Shown here piece by piece: positions 2,559-51,631 of a stretch of 64,000 nt of DNA; positions within the stretch are counted from its first letter, which is position 1; each line of letters opens with the position of its first letter. Position numbers and translations under genes: made by a program. The DNA is taken from NCBI RefSeq assembly GCF_009695545.1, contig NZ_VUNS01000011.1, positions 1 to 64,000 of the forward strand, written 5' to 3'. The notes below the pieces were generated by a model that ran no database searches, was not told the origin of the DNA, and worked only from the letters and a program-made list of their open reading frames with translations. The stretch comes from Victivallis lenta (GTDB lineage: Bacteria; Verrucomicrobiota; Lentisphaeria; Victivallales; Victivallaceae).

Positions 2559-2753
2559 ATGATGGATGAAAGATGGCTTTCGGTTGACGAGATCGCAGAA
2601 TATCTTGGAGTCGGCCGGGAAACAATTTACAACTGGATCGAGAAAAGAGCAATGCCAGCCCATAAAGTCGGCAGATGCTGGAAATTCAAGCGGCAGGAAG
2701 TTGATGCCTGGGTGGAGTCCGGAAAAGCTGCCGAAGGGTGTGGTGCGCTATGA
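2559..2753 (+). CDS. Excisionase-type helix-turn-helix DNA-binding protein
   Basis: 64 residues. It is a textbook short MerR/excisionase HTH: RWLSVDEIAEYLGVGRETIY, then NWIEKRAMPAHKVG and WKFKRQEVDAWVES. This fold binds DNA through the first helix pair and the wing. GGAG at 2547-2550 fits a start at 2559; the frame is open back to 2487. The stop overlaps the methyltransferase start (ATGA at 2750-2753). The location at the head of a restriction-modification operon suggests a controller-like role, or it may be a leftover element excisionase; the sequence cannot decide. Confidence 0.85.
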   Translation: MMDERWLSVDEIAEYLGVGRETIYNWIEKRAMPAHKVGRCWKFKRQEVDAWVESGKAAEGCGAL

Positions 2754-3967
2754 TGAAAAAATCAATGGATGATGATATCCTGAGACAGAAAATCATCGCA
2801 CTGCTGAAAGAATCCGGCTCTACCTCGTCGGACAGCGATTTGAACGCGGCTGTCATGAACATGCTGAAAATCCTGCCGCCGCCTGTCGTCAAACTGGATG
2901 CGAAGAATTCCCTTCCGGTCAGTTCATGTCTGCTTGAAAATGAAATCCCGTATCCTCCTCCAAAGAAAGCTGATTTTACTTTCATCGACCTGTTTGCCGG
3001 AATAGGCGGATTCCGTCTTGCATTTCAAAAGGCCGGGGGACGGAGCATTTTCAGTTCGGAATGGGATGAGGCGGCACAAAAGACTTACGAGGCAAATTAC
3101 GGAGAAATTCCCGTCGGCGACATCCGCGCCGTTGACAAAGATGCCATTCCCGCCCATGATGTGCTTTGTGCGGGATTTCCCTGCCAGCCGTTTTCTCTTG
3201 CCGGAGTGTCAAAAAAGAACTCAATGGGACGCGCGACAGGCTTTGAAGATCAGACACAGGGAACGCTGTTTTTTGAAATCAAGGAAATCCTGGCAAGAAA
3301 ACGCCCTGCGGCATTCATGCTTGAAAATGTCAAAAACCTGTTCCGTCACGATCAGGGGAGGACATTTGAAATCATCCGGCATACCCTTGAAGATGTTCTT
3401 GGCTACGTTGTCAACTGGCGGATTGTCGATGGCAGCAAATGGGTCCCGCAGCATCGGGAACGTCTGTTTATTGTCGGATACAACCCTGACCTGATAGACA
3501 TCAGAAAAGAAGATATTTTCATCCCCGTTGAGCCGCTCATTGAGGAGCATTACAAGGCGAAACAGCTCAAGGACATTATTCTGCCTCATGTGGACGGATA
3601 CACACTCGGCCCGGGGACATGGGATACGCTTGAACGTCATAAGGCGCACCACGAGGCGGAAGGAAACGGCTTCGGCTACGGACTGCATCATGTTCCAATC
3701 AAAGAGAATGAAATAACAAGAACCATTTCCGCCCGCTATCACAAGGACGGAGCGGAAATTCTCATTGAGCAGCCGGGGAACCGTCCCCGCCGTCTGACCG
3801 TCGAAGAGGCAATGCAGTTGCAGGGCTATGATCCGGAACATTTCCTGTTCCCCGTCTCCAGGACTCAGGCATACAAACAAATCGGGAACAGCGTTGTATG
3901 GCCCGCGATTCATTCATGCGCATTGGAAATAGCAAGAGTTTTGAGAACCCGGAGAAAAGCAAAATGA
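2750..3967 (+). CDS. dcm: DNA (cytosine-5-)-methyltransferase, Dcm/M.EcoRII type
   Basis: 405 residues. Transfers a methyl group from AdoMet to C5 of cytosine in the host recognition site. Motif I DLFAGIGGFRLAF begins at residue 80; motif IV GFPCQPFS has the catalytic Cys145; motif VI is ENVKNL, motif VIII QHRERLFIVG, motif X QAYKQIGNSVVWP. The 75-residue helical N-terminal extension before motif I is like that of Dcm and M.EcoRII. Site specificity is inferred as CCWGG-like from the EcoRII-type partner and Vsr downstream. ATG at 2750 overlaps the previous stop; a GTG at 2738 is less likely. It overlaps the endonuclease gene by four bases. Confidence 0.95.
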   Translation: MMKKSMDDDILRQKIIALLKESGSTSSDSDLNAAVMNMLKILPPPVVKLDAKNSLPVSSCLLENEIPYPPPKKADFTFIDLFAGIGGFRLAFQKAGGRSIFSSEWDEAAQKTYEANYGEIPVGDIRAVDKDAIPAHDVLCAGFPCQPFSLAGVSKKNSMGRATGFEDQTQGTLFFEIKEILARKRPAAFMLENVKNLFRHDQGRTFEIIRHTLEDVLGYVVNWRIVDGSKWVPQHRERLFIVGYNPDLIDIRKEDIFIPVEPLIEEHYKAKQLKDIILPHVDGYTLGPGTWDTLERHKAHHEAEGNGFGYGLHHVPIKENEITRTISARYHKDGAEILIEQPGNRPRRLTVEEAMQLQGYDPEHFLFPVSRTQAYKQIGNSVVWPAIHSCALEIARVLRTRRKAK

Positions 3968-5181
3968 ACCTTGAAATGCGTTGCAAAAACATTTCTTTGA
4001 CTCGTTTTCTTGAGCTTCTGGATCAGGATAAACTGTTCTGGCTTGTCAAACGTCTTTCCGGAAACGACACGGGAATTACAGGGGGGCACCAGTCCGGGAT
4101 TTACGTCCCCCGCCAGTTTATGGAGGCGGTCGTTCCTGCGGTTGTGACTACGGAGCAATACAACCCGACGCAGGAAATCTCGTGCTATATTCCAAGTCAG
4201 GACTGCCTGAAAACCGGAATTCAGGCGAAATACTACAACAACAAGTATTTTCCTGAAATGAAACTGAAAAAGAAGTATGACGAATTCCGGCTGACCAGAT
4301 GGGTGGGAACTCCATTGCAGGATGTGGAAAACACCGGCAGCATCTGCATCCTTGCCGGAACATGCAGAAACGGGGAAACGGAATTGCTCGGCTGGGTGAG
4401 CAATACGGCGGAAGAAGAGGAGCTCATCGAATACTGGCTTGGCAAAGAAGTGGAGCCGGGACAGATGTATCTATCCTCCGCGTCAGCTGAAAAAAGCGAT
4501 CTGCCTCTTTTGAAACAGCTGCCGGTTTCATGGCTGAAAACATTCCCGACCGGGCGTGATATTTTTGAATTTATCGAAACGCGCTTCCCTCAAAGCTCGT
4601 GGGCAAAGTCCATTGACGAGCTGCTGCTGAAAAGGAGGGCGATGGAATTCGATATCTTTTCCGAGGTTGAGAGACACAATGTTATGCCGAACATCAAAGA
4701 CGGTTTTACATCGGTGGATGAATTCATCAAATATGCCAACAGCGTGGCAAATCGGAGAAAATCCCGTGCCGGGACATCCCTTGAACTGCATCTGGAGAGC
4801 ATCTTTCGGTACGAACAGCTGAAATTTGAAGCTCAGGTCATTACTGAGCAGAACAAAAAGCCGGACTTTATATTCCCTTCGGGGAAGGACTATCACAATC
4901 CGGCATTTCCCAGCGCAAAACTGCATATGCTCGCATCGAAAACCTGTTGCAAGGATCGGTGGCGGCAGGTTATTTCCGAAGCGGACAGAATTGAAAATAA
5001 ACATCTGTTCACCTTGCAGCAGGGTGTTTCTTCAAACCAGCTCGCTGAAATGTACCAGCACGGAATTATATTGGTCGTCCCACAGCCGATAATCACGTCT
5101 TTCCCGGAAGATTACCGTACCAAAATCATGAATTTGACAAATTTCGTTGATTTCATAAAAGAGAGTCAACAAGCTGTGTGA
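3964..5181 (+). CDS. Type II restriction endonuclease, EcoRII-like
   Basis: 405 residues, close to the length of EcoRII. The C-terminal half has the EcoRII-C arrangement: RAGTSLELHLE, then KPDFIFPS with Asp301, and LASKTCCKDRWRQVISEADR with Lys326 and Lys330, matching the D-x(n)-K-x3-K catalytic set of that family. The N-terminal ~170 residues would be the effector-binding domain that makes EcoRII need two sites. GGAG at 3951-3954 supports ATG 3964, which overlaps the methyltransferase stop; an in-frame start at 3898 would overlap it more. Cleavage of unmethylated foreign DNA is the expected role. Exact recognition sequence is inference. Confidence 0.92.
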   Translation: MNLEMRCKNISLTRFLELLDQDKLFWLVKRLSGNDTGITGGHQSGIYVPRQFMEAVVPAVVTTEQYNPTQEISCYIPSQDCLKTGIQAKYYNNKYFPEMKLKKKYDEFRLTRWVGTPLQDVENTGSICILAGTCRNGETELLGWVSNTAEEEELIEYWLGKEVEPGQMYLSSASAEKSDLPLLKQLPVSWLKTFPTGRDIFEFIETRFPQSSWAKSIDELLLKRRAMEFDIFSEVERHNVMPNIKDGFTSVDEFIKYANSVANRRKSRAGTSLELHLESIFRYEQLKFEAQVITEQNKKPDFIFPSGKDYHNPAFPSAKLHMLASKTCCKDRWRQVISEADRIENKHLFTLQQGVSSNQLAEMYQHGIILVVPQPIITSFPEDYRTKIMNLTNFVDFIKESQQAV

Positions 5182-5183
5182 CA

Positions 5184-5603
5184 ATGGATTCCCTGACCAA
5201 AGAAAAACGAAGCTGGAACATGAGCCGGATTCGGTCGAATGACACGACACCGGAACTCGCAGTGCGATCGTTCCTCTTCCGGCACGGATTCCGCTTCCGA
5301 CTTCATGTCAAAAGTCTGCCGGGACATCCCGACATTGTCCTTCCAAAATACAAAACAGTTATTGAGGTTCGCGGTTGTTTTTGGCATCGGCATCCCGGAT
5401 GCCGACAGGCAACCATGCCGTCCTCAAATGTTGAATTCTGGCAGAAGAAATTCAAACAGAATGTCGACAGAGACAAGGAGACGGAAAAACAGCTGAACGA
5501 GCTCGGTTGGAATCTAATCGTGGTTTGGGAATGCGAGCTGAAATCAGATGAATTTCTAAAATCCCTTCCATCCTTAATTCTTAATAAAAGGAATTGCCAA
5601 TGA
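5184..5603 (+). CDS. vsr: Very short patch repair endonuclease Vsr
   Basis: 139 residues. Nicks next to T in T:G mismatches produced by deamination of 5-methylcytosine, so that repair restores C. Family features are all present: SLTKEKRSWNMSRIRSNDTT at the start, TPELAVRSFLFRHGFRFRLH, the metal-binding GHPDIVLPKYKTVIEVRGCF, and zinc ligands WHRHPGC plus the late VVWECE. Gene overlaps the endonuclease stop if GTG 5178 is used; ATG 5184 is the alternative adopted here. Its presence next to a C5 methyltransferase is the classical arrangement and protects the methylated sites from mutation. Confidence 0.95.
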   Translation: MDSLTKEKRSWNMSRIRSNDTTPELAVRSFLFRHGFRFRLHVKSLPGHPDIVLPKYKTVIEVRGCFWHRHPGCRQATMPSSNVEFWQKKFKQNVDRDKETEKQLNELGWNLIVVWECELKSDEFLKSLPSLILNKRNCQ

Positions 5604-38108: not shown

Positions 38109-39275
38109 ATGAAAAATTGTTTCAAGCTGATCGACGAAACCGCCAAGCAATTGCCGATGAACACCGCCGCCGCCGCGGTTTTCAACCGTGTTGTACTGCT
38201 GGATGCACTGAAACGAGTTGCGCCGGCAACCTGCCGGAAAAGCAGCGTTTTGCCGATTCTGCAAAACGTCCTGTTCAACGTGCAGAAGGACGGCAGCGCA
38301 ATAATTACCGCGACGAATCTTGAATTGTCGGTTTCGGTGACGCTGGCGACCGAGGCCCGCCGGAACGTAATTTTTACAGTACCGTTTGCGCCGTTGCTGA
38401 AAGCGGTTCGTCTGATGCGTTGCGACCGAATCGGATTTTTACCGGGCGAAAACACGGTTGTTTTTGAATCCGGCTCCGTGTCAGTAACGGCGCATACCTG
38501 CCCGGCGGCCGATTATCCGCAGATGGAAAGCGTACTGAAAATGTCCATCCGCAACACGATCAGCGACAGCGTGCAGTTTTTCGACGACCTGGCACGGGCG
38601 CAGAAGTGTACATCGCAGGATGATTCGCGCCGGGCGTTGACCGGCGTATATCTGAAAAAGGAGTATGGGCGGGCGGTTGTTACCGGAACGGACGGCAAGC
38701 GACTGCTGATTATCGAAAGCACGGAAATGGCCGGCGACGATGTGAATCCGGCAATCCTGCCGGGGAAATTCATTCCCGCACTGAAAACCGCGTTTGCGGG
38801 GAAGGGAGGTGCATTGACGGTGGATTTTTACGAATCGCATATCGTGATGGAAAGCTCGAATATCCGGGTTGCACTGAAAAAGATCGAAGGGAGTTACCCG
38901 AATGCCAAACAGGTTATTCCGGTCATTCTGCCCGAGAAACTGCACATTTCCGCGTTTGTGCTGGAATGGCTGATCAATTGCGCGGAGTTGGTCAGGGATG
39001 AAAACAATTATCTGGAAATGTACCTGAAACCCGGCCGGCTCGAACTCAAAACGGAAAGTTGCAGTGTGGATGCAATCGGGGCCGCATTCTGCAACCTTGA
39101 ATCGAATGACTACGCCGGGGACCGGGAATTTCATTTCACGTTCAATCCCGATTTTTTGCGAATGGCGACGCTGGCCGGCGACGACCTTACTATCAGTTTT
39201 CAGGACCCGCTTTCTCCTGTCATGTTCAGCAGCCCCGGCCGTTGCTATGTCCTGATGCCGATCCGCAAGAAGTGA
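38109..39275 (+). CDS. dnaN: Prophage-encoded DNA polymerase III beta (sliding clamp) homologue
   Basis: 388 residues, close to the usual length. Three-domain clamp pattern: LPILQNVLFNVQKDGSAIIT with TNLELSVSV, TGVYLKKEYGRAVVTGTDGK with RLLIIE, and the terminal SPVMFSSPGRCYVLMPIRKK (YVLMP[MI]R signature). Full-length second and third domains carry the motif that binds polymerase partners. The ring would tether polymerase to DNA. Host bacteria have their own clamp, so this one would redirect polymerases or nucleases on prophage DNA. Confidence 0.9.
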   Translation: MKNCFKLIDETAKQLPMNTAAAAVFNRVVLLDALKRVAPATCRKSSVLPILQNVLFNVQKDGSAIITATNLELSVSVTLATEARRNVIFTVPFAPLLKAVRLMRCDRIGFLPGENTVVFESGSVSVTAHTCPAADYPQMESVLKMSIRNTISDSVQFFDDLARAQKCTSQDDSRRALTGVYLKKEYGRAVVTGTDGKRLLIIESTEMAGDDVNPAILPGKFIPALKTAFAGKGGALTVDFYESHIVMESSNIRVALKKIEGSYPNAKQVIPVILPEKLHISAFVLEWLINCAELVRDENNYLEMYLKPGRLELKTESCSVDAIGAAFCNLESNDYAGDREFHFTFNPDFLRMATLAGDDLTISFQDPLSPVMFSSPGRCYVLMPIRKK

Positions 39276-39282
39276 AAACAGT

Positions 39283-40095
39283 ATGAAACATATCGTTTGT
39301 TATTCTGGCGGTATTGAGTCCGCGTTGGCAGCTATTGAGGTAGTCCGAAAGTACGGCCGCAAAAACGTCATACTGGTGAATCATAACATTTGTACCGAGG
39401 CCGAGGACCCCGATATCAAAGACTACAAATATAACATCGCCGACTATCTCGGTCTTAACATCGAATTCGTGACGGCGCAGGAGACGTTCCCGCATTTAGA
39501 CCCGATCAAAACTTGTATAGAAATTCGAGCGTTCAAGGTGGGAAAGGGGCGTGAGCTGTGTACTGCCAAACTCAAAACGGAGCCTTTCATGCGCTGGCTC
39601 TCTACCCATTACCGCCCGGACGAGTGTGTCATCTATTACGGGTTCACCAGTTTTGAAAACAACCGTTGTGCCCGACGAATCGAGGCGATGTGTAAGGCGG
39701 GCTGGAGACTGGATTTTCCGCTGCTATGGTGGGATCGAACGATTTACGATACTGCCGAAATCGGTATTCCGCGTCCTGAACATTATCAGATATGGCAGCA
39801 CGGAAACTGTATTGGCTGTTTGAAAGCAGGATGGCTGCATTGGTACTGCGTGTACGTCCACCGCCGCGACCGCTGGGAGCTGGCGAAGAAAGCTGAAAAG
39901 GAAATCGGTTATACGATCAACCGACGCAACAATCTCCCCTGTCTTCTGATCGAACGCGAAGAGGAATTTGAAGTGTTACGCCGCGCCGGGCTTCCGGCAA
40001 CTGAATGGATACCGAGCGGCAAATTTTGGAGCATGGCGCGCAATCTGCTGAAGAACAATCAACCGGAATTTAACTTTAAAGAGGATTTGAGATGA
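39283..40095 (+). CDS. PP-loop ATPase of the PAPS-reductase type
   Basis: 270 residues. IVCYSGGIESALAAIEVV has the PP-loop SGG-x-S motif that binds ATP pyrophosphate; the later GRELCTAKLKTEPFMRWL and CIGCLKAGWLHWYCVYVHRR contain the Cys residues typical of PAPS reductase/DndC-like enzymes, possibly for a metal or Fe-S site. Phage members are often annotated as phosphoadenosine phosphosulfate reductases, but the true reaction is unknown and may modify nucleic acid. It overlaps the HAD gene by four bases. Confidence 0.8.
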   Translation: MKHIVCYSGGIESALAAIEVVRKYGRKNVILVNHNICTEAEDPDIKDYKYNIADYLGLNIEFVTAQETFPHLDPIKTCIEIRAFKVGKGRELCTAKLKTEPFMRWLSTHYRPDECVIYYGFTSFENNRCARRIEAMCKAGWRLDFPLLWWDRTIYDTAEIGIPRPEHYQIWQHGNCIGCLKAGWLHWYCVYVHRRDRWELAKKAEKEIGYTINRRNNLPCLLIEREEEFEVLRRAGLPATEWIPSGKFWSMARNLLKNNQPEFNFKEDLR

Positions 40096-45671: not shown

Positions 45672-46220
45672 ATGAGTTGCAATAAAATCTATGACCGGCG
45701 GCACACTGAATGCGCTGGCTGCCCGGATACATCTGAATGTCAATTGCATAACGTTTGTACATGCTATGGGGGGTACAGCAATGCCGCGGATGCGTGCAAA
45801 GCCTGCGCGAATCGTGAATATTGCCAAGCTGCCAAAGATGAAAAATTTCATGCCAAGCGACATGGAGAACCGTCTATCAGTCTGATTGATGTGGAATATT
45901 CGTCACAAGAAGCAAGTCCGCAGGAAGTAAGCCGGGAAAGTGAAGTATTGAATCGGCTGTTTGAATGTTGTAATCACAATCCGTTGACCATAGCAATAGC
46001 AATAGCGCGTCACGGTGGTATGAGTTATGCCGAAATTGCGCGCGCGCTCGGGACATCGAAACAACGTGTTTATTGGAGGATTACGAAAGTCAGAAATTCG
46101 GCGTTGGTGGCTTATTTGTGCGGCCAGCGTTCCAGCAAGCACCGCAATAGTGCAATCAAGGTCAGTACGATAGAAGATCAGGAAAGAACCGGCAAAAAGG
46201 TACTTCCTGGAGATAAATAA
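45672..46220 (+). CDS. Cys-rich HTH protein, possible late regulator
   Basis: 182 residues. The first 60 hold ten Cys (ECAGCPDTSECQLHNVCTCY, ACKACANREYCQ) and should bind metal; the C-terminal half has an HTH like region 4 of sigma factors (GGMSYAEIARALGTSKQRVY). Strong RBS AGGAGG at 45661-45666. It precedes the packaging genes, a usual location for a late transcription activator. Family not assigned. Confidence 0.6.
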   Translation: MSCNKIYDRRHTECAGCPDTSECQLHNVCTCYGGYSNAADACKACANREYCQAAKDEKFHAKRHGEPSISLIDVEYSSQEASPQEVSRESEVLNRLFECCNHNPLTIAIAIARHGGMSYAEIARALGTSKQRVYWRITKVRNSALVAYLCGQRSSKHRNSAIKVSTIEDQERTGKKVLPGDK

Positions 46221-46290
46221 AAAAAAGTGGGCTAGGGCGGTTCGCTATTTCTCTATTTTTCAACATCAAAAAATTTTGGGTCAAAGCAAT

Positions 46291-47289
46291 ATGGCATTAT
46301 TTGAAATACAGCCGCGGCGGACACTGAACGGAACCGGCGGCGTTGCGGTAGCGGAAAATGAGACGGTCCGGGTTTGCGGTCCGCTGTTGAAATTAAAAAA
46401 CGCAATTGGAACGCTTGAACGCGGGAAAAATATTCATTTTGTGACGGCGGGTAGTTGGGCGCTGCATGACTTGGTGAAATACCTGTTGACGCAGACGGGA
46501 CCGGCTGATTTGTTGGCATTCACTTGGAGCCTGACAATTCCGGCAGCGGTAACATTAATACGGCAGCAGGAAGCCGGAAATTTGCGGAATATGTCGTTTA
46601 TCGTCGATGCAAAAATGAGCAAATGGTCTGCGGCCGCGCTGTCGATTCTGACGAAACATTGTGACAGGATTGTCCGTACTGCGAATCATGCGAAAGGCTT
46701 TTTATTGAGCAATGCGGAATGGCGCGTATCGGTAATCAGTTCTGCGAATTTCAGCAATAACCCGCGTATTGAGGGCGGATGTATCAGCACAAATCCGGTT
46801 GTTTTCGATATGCACCGGGAATGGATCGAACAGCTTTTGCACGACGGGGACCCGTTCCGGGCGGAGACAGAGCCGCTGCCGGTTCAAGCGGCTGCAGGAC
46901 CAGACAAGACTTTGTTTTTGATTCGCGGTTTGCCGGGTTCGGGAAAATCGACACTGGCGCACATGCTGACGGATACGGTTTTTGAGAATGACGATTTTTT
47001 CACTGTGGGCGGAAATTATCTGTTTTCAGCGCGGGAACTGCCGCGGGCGGCGGCGACCTGTTACAACAATGTCCGTGATGCAATGGAAGAAGGGCGGCCG
47101 CGCATCGCGGTTGCAAATGTGTTTGCGGAGGCGGCGGGAATGGACCGTTATATTCAGTTGGCCGGCGCAATGGGTTATGCGGTCGTGTCTCTGATTGTGG
47201 AAAATCGCAGCGCGCGCGAAAATATCCACAGTGTGACGCCGGCGGCCATAGATGGAATGAAGCGGCGTTTTGAGGTAAAACTATGCTGA
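46291..47289 (+). CDS. PLD-like domain fused to P-loop polynucleotide-kinase-like domain
   Basis: 332 residues. The N-terminal ~185 residues look like a phospholipase-D-type fold with a single HKD-like motif: NHAKGFLLSNAEW (His133, Lys135) then VISSANFSNNPRIEGG, matching H-x-K ... S-x-N with a missing acidic residue. The C-terminal ~130 are an AAA_33/NEDD4BP2-type kinase: FLIRGLPGSGKSTLA, FENDDFFTVGG and NIHSVTPAAIDGMKRRFE. A possible nucleic-acid end-processing enzyme. Start at ATG 46291; the frame extends to 46276. Placed before the terminase genes. Confidence 0.75.
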   Translation: MALFEIQPRRTLNGTGGVAVAENETVRVCGPLLKLKNAIGTLERGKNIHFVTAGSWALHDLVKYLLTQTGPADLLAFTWSLTIPAAVTLIRQQEAGNLRNMSFIVDAKMSKWSAAALSILTKHCDRIVRTANHAKGFLLSNAEWRVSVISSANFSNNPRIEGGCISTNPVVFDMHREWIEQLLHDGDPFRAETEPLPVQAAAGPDKTLFLIRGLPGSGKSTLAHMLTDTVFENDDFFTVGGNYLFSARELPRAAATCYNNVRDAMEEGRPRIAVANVFAEAAGMDRYIQLAGAMGYAVVSLIVENRSARENIHSVTPAAIDGMKRRFEVKLC

Positions 47290-47543
47290 CGGAAAAGAAC
47301 TTGCAAGATATTGAGGAATGCGGAGCGCGCCAGTTTACCGAGGAAGAGACTTGTATCATTGCAGACGTATCGGAAAAGGAATACGAGTGTAATCCGGAGG
47401 CGCGGCGGCGTTATCGGCGGGGGATGCTGAAAGCGCAATTTGAGGTGCGCGAAACAGTGCGGAAGATGGCCGCGGAAGGTGTGCCGCAGATGGTGAAAAT
47501 CTTTCAAAGCTACATTGACCGAATCGAATTTCCGGAGGAATAA
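47283..47543 (+). CDS. Small prophage protein next to terminase
   Basis: 86 residues, helical, acidic N-terminus (MLTEKNLQDIEECGARQFTE), with RRRYRRGMLKAQFEVRETVR in the middle. The ATG overlaps the fusion gene stop by seven bases; two bases separate it from the next gene. Could be a packaging accessory protein or part of a small terminase. Family unknown. Confidence 0.55.
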   Translation: MLTEKNLQDIEECGARQFTEEETCIIADVSEKEYECNPEARRRYRRGMLKAQFEVRETVRKMAAEGVPQMVKIFQSYIDRIEFPEE

Positions 47544-47545
47544 AG

Positions 47546-48079
47546 ATGGCATTGACCCGAGTAAAACGCAGCGGCGAACCGCGCCGGAAAGCGTCTTTGC
47601 CTCCGCCGGTCAAAGCGTCGGTCAAAGCGATGACGAAAAAAGAGTTTGCCGATTGGACCGGCAAGAGCCTGCCGGCGGTCCGGAAGTTATGCGACAAAGG
47701 CCGGTTCTTTTTGGACGGATTCGGAGAATTTGAAGCGGTCAAGACCGGCACATCAAAAACCGCGCCGCTGGAAATCCGACCGGTTGAAGCTGCCCCGGTT
47801 GAACAGCATACGCGCCGGGGAACGGAGAATCTGTCATTTGCGGAACTGAAAGCGCGGAAGCTCGAAGCGGAAATCCGGCACTTGGAGCAACGCACGCTTG
47901 ACCGTCAGGAAACCATAGAGCGCAATTTTGAAGCGGAAATCATTGAAAAGCTGATTGATGCGCTGCAACCATTGAAGGATGCTTTTGTAAAATGCAAATT
48001 AACTCCGGAACAGACCAGTTTAATCACCGGCGCGCTGAACGAATCATTGCAGCAGTTAGAAAGATCGTTGATACAATAA
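47546..48079 (+). CDS. Probable terminase small subunit (Nu1-like)
   Basis: 177 residues. A winged HTH-like segment is visible: MTKKEFADWTGKSLPAVRKL, CDKGRFFLDGFGEFE. A coiled-coil helix follows (LKARKLEAEIRHLEQRTLDR). The design matches Nu1-type small terminases, which recognise the packaging site and feed DNA to the large subunit. It overlaps TerL by 88 bases if TerL starts at 47992. Confidence rests on position and fold pattern. Confidence 0.65.
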   Translation: MALTRVKRSGEPRRKASLPPPVKASVKAMTKKEFADWTGKSLPAVRKLCDKGRFFLDGFGEFEAVKTGTSKTAPLEIRPVEAAPVEQHTRRGTENLSFAELKARKLEAEIRHLEQRTLDRQETIERNFEAEIIEKLIDALQPLKDAFVKCKLTPEQTSLITGALNESLQQLERSLIQ

Positions 48080-49809
48080 CGCCGATTGCATACATGCGCC
48101 CGGTCGAATACTGCGAAGCCGTGGTCAATTTGAGTGCAGACAAGACGGCTGCGGCCTCCGGGTTGATTCGCATTCGGGACGTAACTCCGTATCTGGTGGA
48201 CCCGATCAACTATTTTGAGCATCACGGAAAATGCAAAGAGACGTGCCAAGCGGTCGAACAGACCGCCAAATCGACCGGCTGGAAGATGGGCGCGATGTGG
48301 CGCTTGCGCCATATGCCGTCACCGGCTGCAATTCTGTATCAGAACGAGGATGTAGGGAAAAAGATTGTCCGCGACAGCTTTTTGCCGATGCTTCGATGTG
48401 AACCGGATTATCGGCGCGCTGTTCCGGAACGTGCCAACGAGAACCCGAAATTTCTTGATTTGCCGGATGCACCGGTCTACCTGATGAGTGCGGAACAGGC
48501 GATTATTTCTATCCCGCTCGGGCTGATTGTCGGGGACGAAATCAATAAATGGCGGCAGGAAAAAGCGAACCGCAACAAGAAGAAAATCACGTCGGATGAA
48601 GATTACCAAGTCTCGAAGCTGAAAGACATGGACAAACGGACCCGGACGTTTTACGACAGCTTGCGGGTTTTGGTCTGTTCGCCGGAGGGAAAAAACGCGC
48701 CGATTACAACCGAGTTTAAACAATCGAGCATGGGTTACTTTCATTGCCGTTGTGTGGAATGCGGAGAACTGGCGTTCAATTCCACAATGCCGGAGGATTA
48801 TTTTTCCTACGAGGCGACAGACGGAACGGTGAACCGCGCGACGATTCGCTTAACCTGCCCGAAATGCGGCCATGTTCATACCGAAGCCGACAAAATTATG
48901 ATCACTCGCGGCGGCGCATATGTTCACGAGCATCCGGAGCGGTTCGATTATCACGCCGGTTTCTGTTGGGGAGCGCTGGCGGCGCAGTTTCCCGGCGTTG
49001 ACTGGCTGGAAATCTGTCAGGCAATCGAGAATGCGAAGAACTCGAACAGCTACGAAACACAGGCATATTTATGCAACTCCATCAAGGGAGTTGAGTTTGT
49101 GCCGACTGTCGTAACCGGAGAAAAAATCAGTGTTGTACGCAGCCACTTTATACCGGAGTTGCCACCGGATGTGTTTTTCTCGGCGGTTTATATGGGGGTG
49201 GACACGCAGGAAGTCGGTTATTGGTGGCAGGTATGGGGCATTGATCTGGCCGGTAACTGGTATACGCTGGATTATGGTTTTGCGTGGGACGATCAAGCGG
49301 TAATCGATGCTTGGAATCGGGAATATTGCGGCATTCGCCCGATGGCCGGAATCATCGATGAAGGCGGCCACCGAAAACCGGATGTAGATAATCTGCTGGC
49401 GTTGCTCGGCAGCGGCTTTTTCAAGTATAAGGGGGAAGGCGGAAATCGCAAGGAAAATTACCGGATATCGGAACAGGATGAATTTTTGATTCTGGCGATG
49501 GCGAAACGTTATCAGGCGCGTTTGCTGTATCTGATTTACAGCCAGCATCGGAAAAATAATCATTACTGGTTCATCGTGTGTCCGATCAAGAAGACATTCA
49601 CACAGCAGATGGCAAGCGTGCAAGCGCCGGCCGGAGACCCGGAAGCGGATTTTGAGGAATGGACCCCATACGATCGGCAGCATGATTTATTTGATGCAGG
49701 AAAAATGATTCTGCTTATTCATGATTTTGCGTGTAATGAATTCCCATCGTCATTTTGGCGACGGCCGGCCGGTTATTCGGAACCGCAACCGGCGGCGGTT
49801 CTGGTCTGA
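47992..49809 (+). CDS. Terminase large subunit, GpA family
   Basis: 605 residues. N-terminal ATPase: a relaxed Walker A near VEQTAKSTGWKMGAMWR (residues 88-105) and the GpA Walker B IVGDEINKW. A zinc-ribbon follows (HCRCVECGELAF, LTCPKCGHVH). The C-terminal RNase-H-type nuclease starts YMGVDTQEVGYWWQVWGIDL. GpA enzymes cut concatemers and drive packaging. Start 47992 overlaps the small subunit; start at 48094 (MRPVEYCEAV) is a real alternative. Followed by the first copy of the intergenic element. Confidence 0.85.
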   Translation: MQINSGTDQFNHRRAERIIAAVRKIVDTITPIAYMRPVEYCEAVVNLSADKTAAASGLIRIRDVTPYLVDPINYFEHHGKCKETCQAVEQTAKSTGWKMGAMWRLRHMPSPAAILYQNEDVGKKIVRDSFLPMLRCEPDYRRAVPERANENPKFLDLPDAPVYLMSAEQAIISIPLGLIVGDEINKWRQEKANRNKKKITSDEDYQVSKLKDMDKRTRTFYDSLRVLVCSPEGKNAPITTEFKQSSMGYFHCRCVECGELAFNSTMPEDYFSYEATDGTVNRATIRLTCPKCGHVHTEADKIMITRGGAYVHEHPERFDYHAGFCWGALAAQFPGVDWLEICQAIENAKNSNSYETQAYLCNSIKGVEFVPTVVTGEKISVVRSHFIPELPPDVFFSAVYMGVDTQEVGYWWQVWGIDLAGNWYTLDYGFAWDDQAVIDAWNREYCGIRPMAGIIDEGGHRKPDVDNLLALLGSGFFKYKGEGGNRKENYRISEQDEFLILAMAKRYQARLLYLIYSQHRKNNHYWFIVCPIKKTFTQQMASVQAPAGDPEADFEEWTPYDRQHDLFDAGKMILLIHDFACNEFPSSFWRRPAGYSEPQPAAVLV

Positions 49810-50065: not shown

Positions 50066-51631
50066 ATGTTGAATTGGATTCGTGATTATTTCAAACGGAC
50101 GGAACCGGCGGAGCCGGCGGAACGTTCCTTTATCGGTGCGGAGGTGAACCGCTTCAATCAAGATTTTCTGATGGAAGCGATCCGGACCAATGAGGATATT
50201 CGGCGCAATTTGCCGAATTTGCGTAACCGCAGCCGGGAGCTGTCGAAAAACAATGGCGACTACCGCAAGTACCTGCGGATGTGCGAACGCAATATCGTCG
50301 GGCCGAACGGGATTTTGCTGCAAACGATTGTCCGTCTGAAAAACGGCAAGCTCGACAAGATGGCGAACCAATGGATTGTAAAACGTTGGGCCGACTTCTG
50401 TATGAAAGGAAACTGTACCGCAAACCGCCGGCAGGGAATGCGGCGGCTGATGAAAAATATTGTCCGTTGCTGGCGGATTGATGGAGAGGTGTTTTTGCGG
50501 CGGCTACCGAACTTCAACAACCGCCATCGTTACGCATTCCAGTTGCTCGACCCGGCAGCCTGTCCGGTTACGCTGAATCAGGTATTGCCGAACGGGAACC
50601 GAATTGTTATGGGCGTGGAGCTGGACCCGTGGGATGCGCCTGTCGCCTACTATTTCTACTCCCGCAGCAATGTCGATTCGTCGATGGGGCAGTATTACGA
50701 TCCGATTTATGCACCGACACAGCGGATCGACGGGGAAGCGTATGTCCGGCTGCCGGTGGAGGAGATCAACCACTTTTATGATGATGAGCTTGTCGGGCAG
50801 GTTCGCGGCTTCCCGTTCGGCCAAGCGGCGATGCAGGAAATTTATCTACTGAACAGCTATGTCTATGCCGAACTTGTCGCTGCGGATGCGGCCAGTAAAA
50901 AGCTCGGCAAAATCGTCAATAAAAAACTGCCGTCGCAGTACGGCGGCCGGAATGCGGATGGCACGCAGAAAGAAGCGCCGATTCAGCGCGTGAAGACCGA
51001 AGCCGGCAGTTTTGATTTGCTGACGGGTGATTGGGATATTCTGACTTACGACCCGCAGCACCCGGCTGCGAATTTCCCGCCCTTCATCAAGGCGATGAAT
51101 CGCAAAGTTGCGAACGGTCTTGACGTTGCTTACAACGGTTTTGCAAACGACCTGGAAAGTGTGAATTTTTCGTCGATGCGCGGCGGCGTACTGGATGAGC
51201 GTGATGCGTGGATGGACCAGCAGCAAACAATCATCGAAGATATTTTGGATGTAGAATTTCCGCTTTGGCTGCAGGTTCAATTACTGCTGCCGGATTCGCC
51301 CTATGAGCCGTTTGCATTTGAGCGGTTGAACGCGGCGCAATGGCTGCCGCGGCGCTGGTCCTGGGTAGACCCGGAACGTGACGCGCAAAGCAAGTTGTCA
51401 CAGGTTGCGTTAGGAGCGACGACCCCGCAGGATATTGCCGCCGAACTCGGAAACAATTTTGACGATAATATCGAGCAGATCAAAGAGGCGGTTTCCGCCC
51501 TCGGCCCGATACGGGAATATCTGTCAATCATCAAAGACCTGAAAGGCGTGTTCGATAAATCGCAGGACCTGAAACCGGACAATGTCATTCCCCCGAAAAA
51601 CGATGAAAACGACGACGCGGAACAGAAATGA
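50066..51631 (+). CDS. Portal protein, lambda family
   Basis: 521 residues. Lambda-type portal pattern: RSRELSKNNGDYRKYLRMCE (NNP-like region), NIVGPNGILLQTIVRLKN, VKRWADFCMKGNCTANRRQG, IDGEVFLRRLPN, PVEEINHFYDDELVGQVRGF. It forms the dodecameric gate for DNA. The C-terminal acidic tail (NDENDDAEQK-like) is typical. Upstream gpW-like and downstream S78 protease genes match. Confidence 0.88.
   Translation: MLNWIRDYFKRTEPAEPAERSFIGAEVNRFNQDFLMEAIRTNEDIRRNLPNLRNRSRELSKNNGDYRKYLRMCERNIVGPNGILLQTIVRLKNGKLDKMANQWIVKRWADFCMKGNCTANRRQGMRRLMKNIVRCWRIDGEVFLRRLPNFNNRHRYAFQLLDPAACPVTLNQVLPNGNRIVMGVELDPWDAPVAYYFYSRSNVDSSMGQYYDPIYAPTQRIDGEAYVRLPVEEINHFYDDELVGQVRGFPFGQAAMQEIYLLNSYVYAELVAADAASKKLGKIVNKKLPSQYGGRNADGTQKEAPIQRVKTEAGSFDLLTGDWDILTYDPQHPAANFPPFIKAMNRKVANGLDVAYNGFANDLESVNFSSMRGGVLDERDAWMDQQQTIIEDILDVEFPLWLQVQLLLPDSPYEPFAFERLNAAQWLPRRWSWVDPERDAQSKLSQVALGATTPQDIAAELGNNFDDNIEQIKEAVSALGPIREYLSIIKDLKGVFDKSQDLKPDNVIPPKNDENDDAEQK

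Follow-up and report, generated by a model that had tools for sequence, protein, structure and literature searches.

A prophage of Victivallis lenta encodes a single protein in which a phospholipase D (PLD)-type nuclease is joined to a T4-kinase-like domain, and this join is real, rare and conserved. The gene lies in the window, as we call the whole stretch of 64,000 nucleotides analysed, which is part of a 5.5-Mb genome and whose prophage is also an IMG/VR record. On the forward strand, positions 46291–47289 encode 332 residues, or five more if translation were to begin at the in-frame TTG at 46276. We propose, giving the idea about an even chance, that the fusion is a DNA-packaging accessory enzyme, namely a PLD nuclease which acts with the terminase and carries a Pnk-type ATP-binding domain. 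The motifs that an earlier note on this DNA had listed for the protein are all present in the translation: HAK at residues 133–135, SSAN at 150–153, GLPGSGKS at 213–220 and NIHSVTPAAIDGMKRRFE near the C-terminus.

Structure prediction of both halves bore out the earlier assignment of a PLD fold to residues 1–185 and of a kinase to the remainder, placing the two domains at residues 44–187 and 204–332. The AlphaFold2 model, a monomer computed from a 68-row alignment made solely from the window and the fetched loci, has a mean pLDDT of 85.6 and a pTM of 0.68. The protein also divides cleanly in family searches, with residues 36–206 matching phrog_16945 ('endonuclease', E 2.5e-21) and residues 204–329 matching phrog_2071 ('ATPase', E 6.5e-31). 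Against Pfam, the kinase half alone was matched (AAA_33, above the cut-off), and the phrog_16945-type PLD family is absent from that library.

Superimposing the N-terminal domain (46420–46851, +) with VIA-align yielded a Z-score of 14.4 to Helicobacter pylori NucT (6ehi; rmsd 2.5 Å, 137 residues aligned) and of 14.0 to Salmonella Nuc (1byr), with 135–137 residues aligned across the two structures. Searched by sequence against the PDB, the PLD family gave no clear match; the fold is assigned from structure alone. Existing annotations of the family read endonuclease, NucT-like nuclease and even polyphosphate kinase, and nothing else. NucT and Nuc are single-motif PLD nucleases, whose family motifs H-x-K and S-x-N are those of the fusion's PLD half. 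However, these two are cellular nucleases with neither a kinase half nor a terminase link, whereas the fusion has both. The active-site stretch (46687–46773, +) comprises H133-A-K135, S151-A-N153, N157 and E161. In an alignment of 21 relatives, H133, K135, N153, N157 and E161 are invariant and S151 is nearly so; the Asp of HxKxxxxD is missing, its position being taken by S140.

The C-terminal domain (46900–47286, +), of T4-Pnk/NEDD4BP2 type with its P-loop at 46927–46950 (+), superimposes on Clostridium thermocellum Pnk (4gp7; Z 14.2, rmsd 2.9, 129 residues aligned) and on T4 Pnk (2ia5; Z 14.0) in VIA-align, and profile comparison via hhalign matched it to T4 Pnk at 96.6% probability. Fold and P-loop are common to the fused kinase and the kinase domains of both enzymes; nevertheless, T4 Pnk has its kinase joined to a phosphatase, and the fusion has it joined to a nuclease.

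A search for the same fusion elsewhere, as the earlier note had advised, found it in one further Victivallales genome and on four viral contigs. These five further divergent loci, with the two domains in the same order, are G119/L023 (RGIG6748, a sheep-rumen Victivallales MAG of the same class as the window genome) and the contigs L021, L022, L045 and L046; their proteins are 35%–46% identical to that of the window. Finding the join again at five other loci, all divergent, excludes a local frameshift, and the six divergent intact copies, with one clade per half, likewise rule out a gene-calling artefact. The six fused kinases fall on one side of a branch with an SH-aLRT of 92 in a quick, unrooted tree of 83 kinase domains, and the six fused PLDs do so with an SH-aLRT of 98 in an unrooted tree of 34 PLD domains. 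As each half forms a single clade, one old fusion event is the simplest reading. Between L045 and L046, the two closest copies, dN/dS is 0.048 for the PLD half and 0.036 for the kinase half, with dS near saturation.

Across 50,697 phage records, no match spans 80% of the fusion protein, and the top BFVD matches cover one half each, which sets aside the idea of a common annotated family. Of 388 genomes from the phylum, two carry the fusion, the window genome and RGIG6748, and plasmids hold the kinase half only, with no joined form. This rarity is an estimate, since the scans were pattern-based or sampled. The earlier note did not know the architecture as a described phage system; we found it in no family library, phage record or paper searched. 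A literature search, with most subscription journals outside its range, found neither the fusion nor the link between this PLD family and terminases described in any paper. The parts are known families, and the join and the general PLD–terminase link are undescribed as far as the literature and libraries searched show.

Column by column, the six fused kinases were compared with 44 stand-alone kinases picked by similarity to the window kinase; the scan pattern partly imposes the conservation of the P-loop, the other columns being free of such bias. Conservation extends to the fused kinases at R212, the P-loop, N276, E304-N305-R306, H313 and M323. Several other residues are lost. H254 and T279, present in 44 of 44 stand-alone kinases, and W282, present in 43, are replaced in all six fusions. 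Three more residues found in every stand-alone kinase are E283, replaced in five fusions (RGIG6748 retains Glu), R326, replaced in five and retained only by the window copy, and T277, replaced in four. The window kinase itself departs from the stand-alone invariants at the H254, T277, T279, W282 and E283 positions. The G-x-Y-x-F segment is also lost in the fused kinase of RGIG6748, and L026, a distant Victivallales kinase, varies at some of the same positions too. The phrog_2071 stand-alone NEDD4BP2-type phage kinases, of about 127 residues, share the P-loop and are about 38%–50% identical to the fused kinase; however, they keep the equivalents of H254, T279, W282, E283 and R326, which the fused kinases mostly do not. 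Aligned by hhalign, D35, R38 and D85 of T4 Pnk correspond to D234, F237 and N276 of the window kinase. In T4 Pnk, D35 is the general base, and R38 and D85 are essential. The D35 equivalent is kept in five of the six fusions, L023 having an Asp nearby, whereas R38 and D85 are not conserved in the fusion.

These replacements bear on two other readings of the protein. In the first, which we consider unlikely, the kinase half would no longer be a nucleic-acid enzyme and would serve as an ATP-binding switch or structural module, gating the PLD half or coupling it to ATP use by the terminase. It would account for a P-loop that persists while several stand-alone-invariant residues have changed in every fusion, and for the strong purifying selection seen in one pair (L045/L046); however, D234, N276, E304-N305-R306 and H313 are kept in all fusions or nearly all, seemingly beyond the needs of ATP binding.

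The second, also improbable in our judgement, is that the two halves process ends as a pair: the PLD would cleave, and the kinase would phosphorylate 5'-OH groups, at the same ends of DNA or RNA, either for packaging or for undoing damage by host nucleases. By structure match, both folds are those of nucleic-acid end enzymes, and the P-loop and D234 persist as described. The losses of H254, T279, W282, E283 and R326, together with F237 and N276 in place of the T4 R38 and D85, nevertheless argue against such a pair. Moreover, PLD nucleases of the Nuc/BfiI type leave 5'-phosphates, and hence need no kinase. A precedent for pairing a nuclease with a PNK domain is human N4BP2 (B3BP), which, like the fusion, holds both kinds of domain in one protein (PMC6598757). 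Its nuclease, however, is of the Smr type, and the protein is eukaryotic and homologous to Cue2, a nuclease of mRNA quality control (PMC6598757), whereas the fusion has a PLD. In jumbo-phage RNA repair, kinases accompany RNA ligases (PMC7824862); in contrast, neither RNA_ligase nor DNA_ligase_A_M had a match in five fusion records, two of which are about 4 kb long. An RNA repair cassette is disfavoured by this result, which covers those two families, with T4 Rnl1-type ligases and RtcB outside the test, in records of which several are short fragments. Because stand-alone-invariant residues are lost and the two tested ligase families were not found, the label '5'-end kinase' is doubtful. The pairing of a nuclease with a 5'-kinase, put forward in the earlier note, thus finds no support here, and the PLD family adjoins terminases in many phages without such a kinase. 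An ATP-dependent module or a kinase with a changed substrate, the latter suggested by the replaced residues, is as likely as a 5'-end kinase, itself doubtful.

The position of the gene next to the terminase is as the earlier note had it: the fusion is followed by an 86-residue ORF, a 177-residue TerS-like ORF and a GpA-type large terminase (TerL). Upstream, positions 45672–46220 (+) encode a regulator of 182 residues resembling HTH proteins and sigma region 4 in family matches, and sigma-like ORFs take the same upstream position in some other fusion loci. The 86-residue ORF (47283–47543, +) overlaps the stop of the fusion and encodes a helical, TerS-like HTH partner which is conserved beside PLD or PLD–kinase genes; of 24 records that bear a PLD, 15 encode a homologue of it. 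Its model (pLDDT 87) shows an HTH and long helices. The small terminase of Sf6 ranks first among its solved matches, yet the match is weak (Z 5.2 over 53 residues), and we set aside calling the partner a proven TerS. The next ORF (47546–48079, +), of 177 residues with an N-terminal HTH, is a probable small terminase of Nu1/Cox-like type, weakly matching phrog_57 (terminase small subunit, E 0.0026) and phrog_575 (Cox-like, E 0.002). TerL (47992–49809, +) matches GpA_ATPase (E 8e-19), GpA_nuclease (E 1.3e-4) and phrog_15 (E 6.5e-18), and a portal protein (50066–51631, +; phrog_21, E 1.3e-65) marks the head-gene block.

The same partner, of about 86–115 residues, follows all six fusions, and then comes TerL or TerS–TerL where the contig is long enough. 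In L021, one ORF (935–1545, +) is inserted between fusion and partner, encoding a membrane protein that we take to resemble a queuosine-precursor transporter. In L166, which lacks the PLD gene, the partner immediately precedes a 766-residue ORF of terminase size; therefore, the partner probably goes with the terminase, the PLD gene being accessory. In L138 (4989–5837), a PLD is in frame with the partner via a one-base indel relative to L136. We set this aside as evidence of interaction, given that it is a one-base indel in one metagenomic contig and possibly an error.

The place beside the terminase extends to stand-alone relatives of the PLD half, which were gathered on protein similarity alone, with their neighbours ignored. 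Where the surroundings can be read, the PLD gene almost always sits a short way upstream of TerL or of an ORF resembling a small terminase; L037, L040 and L125 are very distant or truncated loci with unreadable surroundings. In Gordonia phages, PLD is gene 1, and TerS and TerL are genes 5–6, whereas in Corynebacterium phage phi16 PLD is gene 1 with TerS and TerL next. PLD adjoins a gene annotated as TerS, with TerL after it, in a Microcystis phage, and TerS stands next to it in Arthrobacter phage Kuleana; a scan with the Microcystis PLD found nothing useful. Contigs without annotation show the PLD ORF, then a small ORF that usually overlaps it or starts within a few bases of its end, and then a large ORF. 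The large ORF matched a terminase PHROG (phrog_15, 38 or 2) in eight of ten cases tested, those of L126 and L143 giving no match, and the small ORFs fall into several types by sequence. Since the TerL PHROGs and the adjacent small proteins differ, the PLD link follows packaging and not one gene block. The phrog_16945 or 'NucT-like' nucleases of Gordonia and Arthrobacter phages are of the same family and hold the same place upstream of the terminase, although they stand alone without a kinase, whereas the window copy is fused. A second, more distant PLD subfamily occurs in Victivallales and relatives (L012, L013, L014 and L037); its checked loci, L017 and L018, have an ORF of about 63 residues and then one of about 780, the latter being TerL in L018. 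The TerLs of L015 (6611–8794, −) and L018 (6005–8341, −) look chimeric, with an N-terminal half matching phrog_38 and a C-terminal half matching phrog_15 (GpA type).

Among the records with a stand-alone PLD, only phi16 has a phrog_2071 match. ORF101 of phi16 (L158:3025–4119), its last gene, joins the start of a P-loop kinase (AAA_33) to a RapZ C-terminal domain, and is the neighbour of PLD, as gene 1, across the genome end. By eye, we take its Cys/His-rich tail to look like HNH; it has no Pfam match. Concerning HNH genes proper, PF01844 has no match in 20 of 27 PLD records and is present in Arthrobacter phages, in which this PLD gene and the HNH gene both lie near a genome end. Because Arthrobacter phages carry both, PLD is not simply a replacement for HNH, and the notion of a plain substitute does not hold cleanly.

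Because the place of the PLD gene is stable across unrelated terminase types, a packaging role is favoured over a defence role. Of the two uses that the earlier note had suggested, packaging gains support from the synteny, and the countering of nick-based defence finds none here; the synteny can, however, reflect transcription timing instead of function. The weakest alternative, a cargo gene for anti-defence or lysogeny which landed near the terminase by chance, fits the accessory nature of the gene, missing from L166 with its same partner, and its absence from most genomes of the phylum, but seems very improbable, as cargo genes usually move while this one keeps its place in nearly all readable PLD relatives across hosts and terminase types, and as no PADLOC family covers most of the fusion, the only matches being weak ones to the P-loop region of the kinase half (best E 0.0021). 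Elsewhere in the prophage, a PAPS-reductase-like protein (39283–40095, +) matches PADLOC SspD (E 1.2e-9) and adjoins a sliding-clamp-like protein (38109–39275). Outside the prophage, a C5-methyltransferase, a 427-residue ORF and a Vsr-like endonuclease (2738–5603, +) presumably form a type II restriction-modification locus.

The packaging accessory enzyme that we favour would work as follows. The N-terminal half, a predicted single-motif PLD nuclease of NucT/Nuc type, expected to be a metal-free homodimer, would work together with both terminase subunits, small and large, to cut, nick or trim DNA. Its model would be the HNH proteins in HK97-type cos cleavage, of which gp74 stimulates the reaction in vitro (PMC11331095). 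Like the PLD half, gp74 is a small nuclease encoded beside the terminase, although its HNH fold is unrelated to the PLD fold. The C-terminal T4-Pnk-type P-loop domain would bind ATP, and may either modify a substrate that it recognises unlike its stand-alone relatives, or make the nuclease/terminase complex ATP-dependent. Such a protein probably arose from a single event that attached a free-standing phage kinase to the terminase-linked PLD gene; the phages concerned are known in this analysis from hosts of the Victivallales.

More tentatively, the terminase-linked PLD family could possibly be a second widespread packaging nuclease, unrelated to HNH, which in Victivallales phages would have come under the control of ATP or phosphorylation via a captured kinase domain. 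HNH proteins came to be seen as a common component of phage packaging machinery from the position of their genes next to the terminase. If a PLD family likewise keeps to that neighbourhood among phages with unrelated terminases, it would add a second component of this kind, a proposal open to direct test, and the fusion would show whether control of packaging nucleases by ATP or a kinase is possible.
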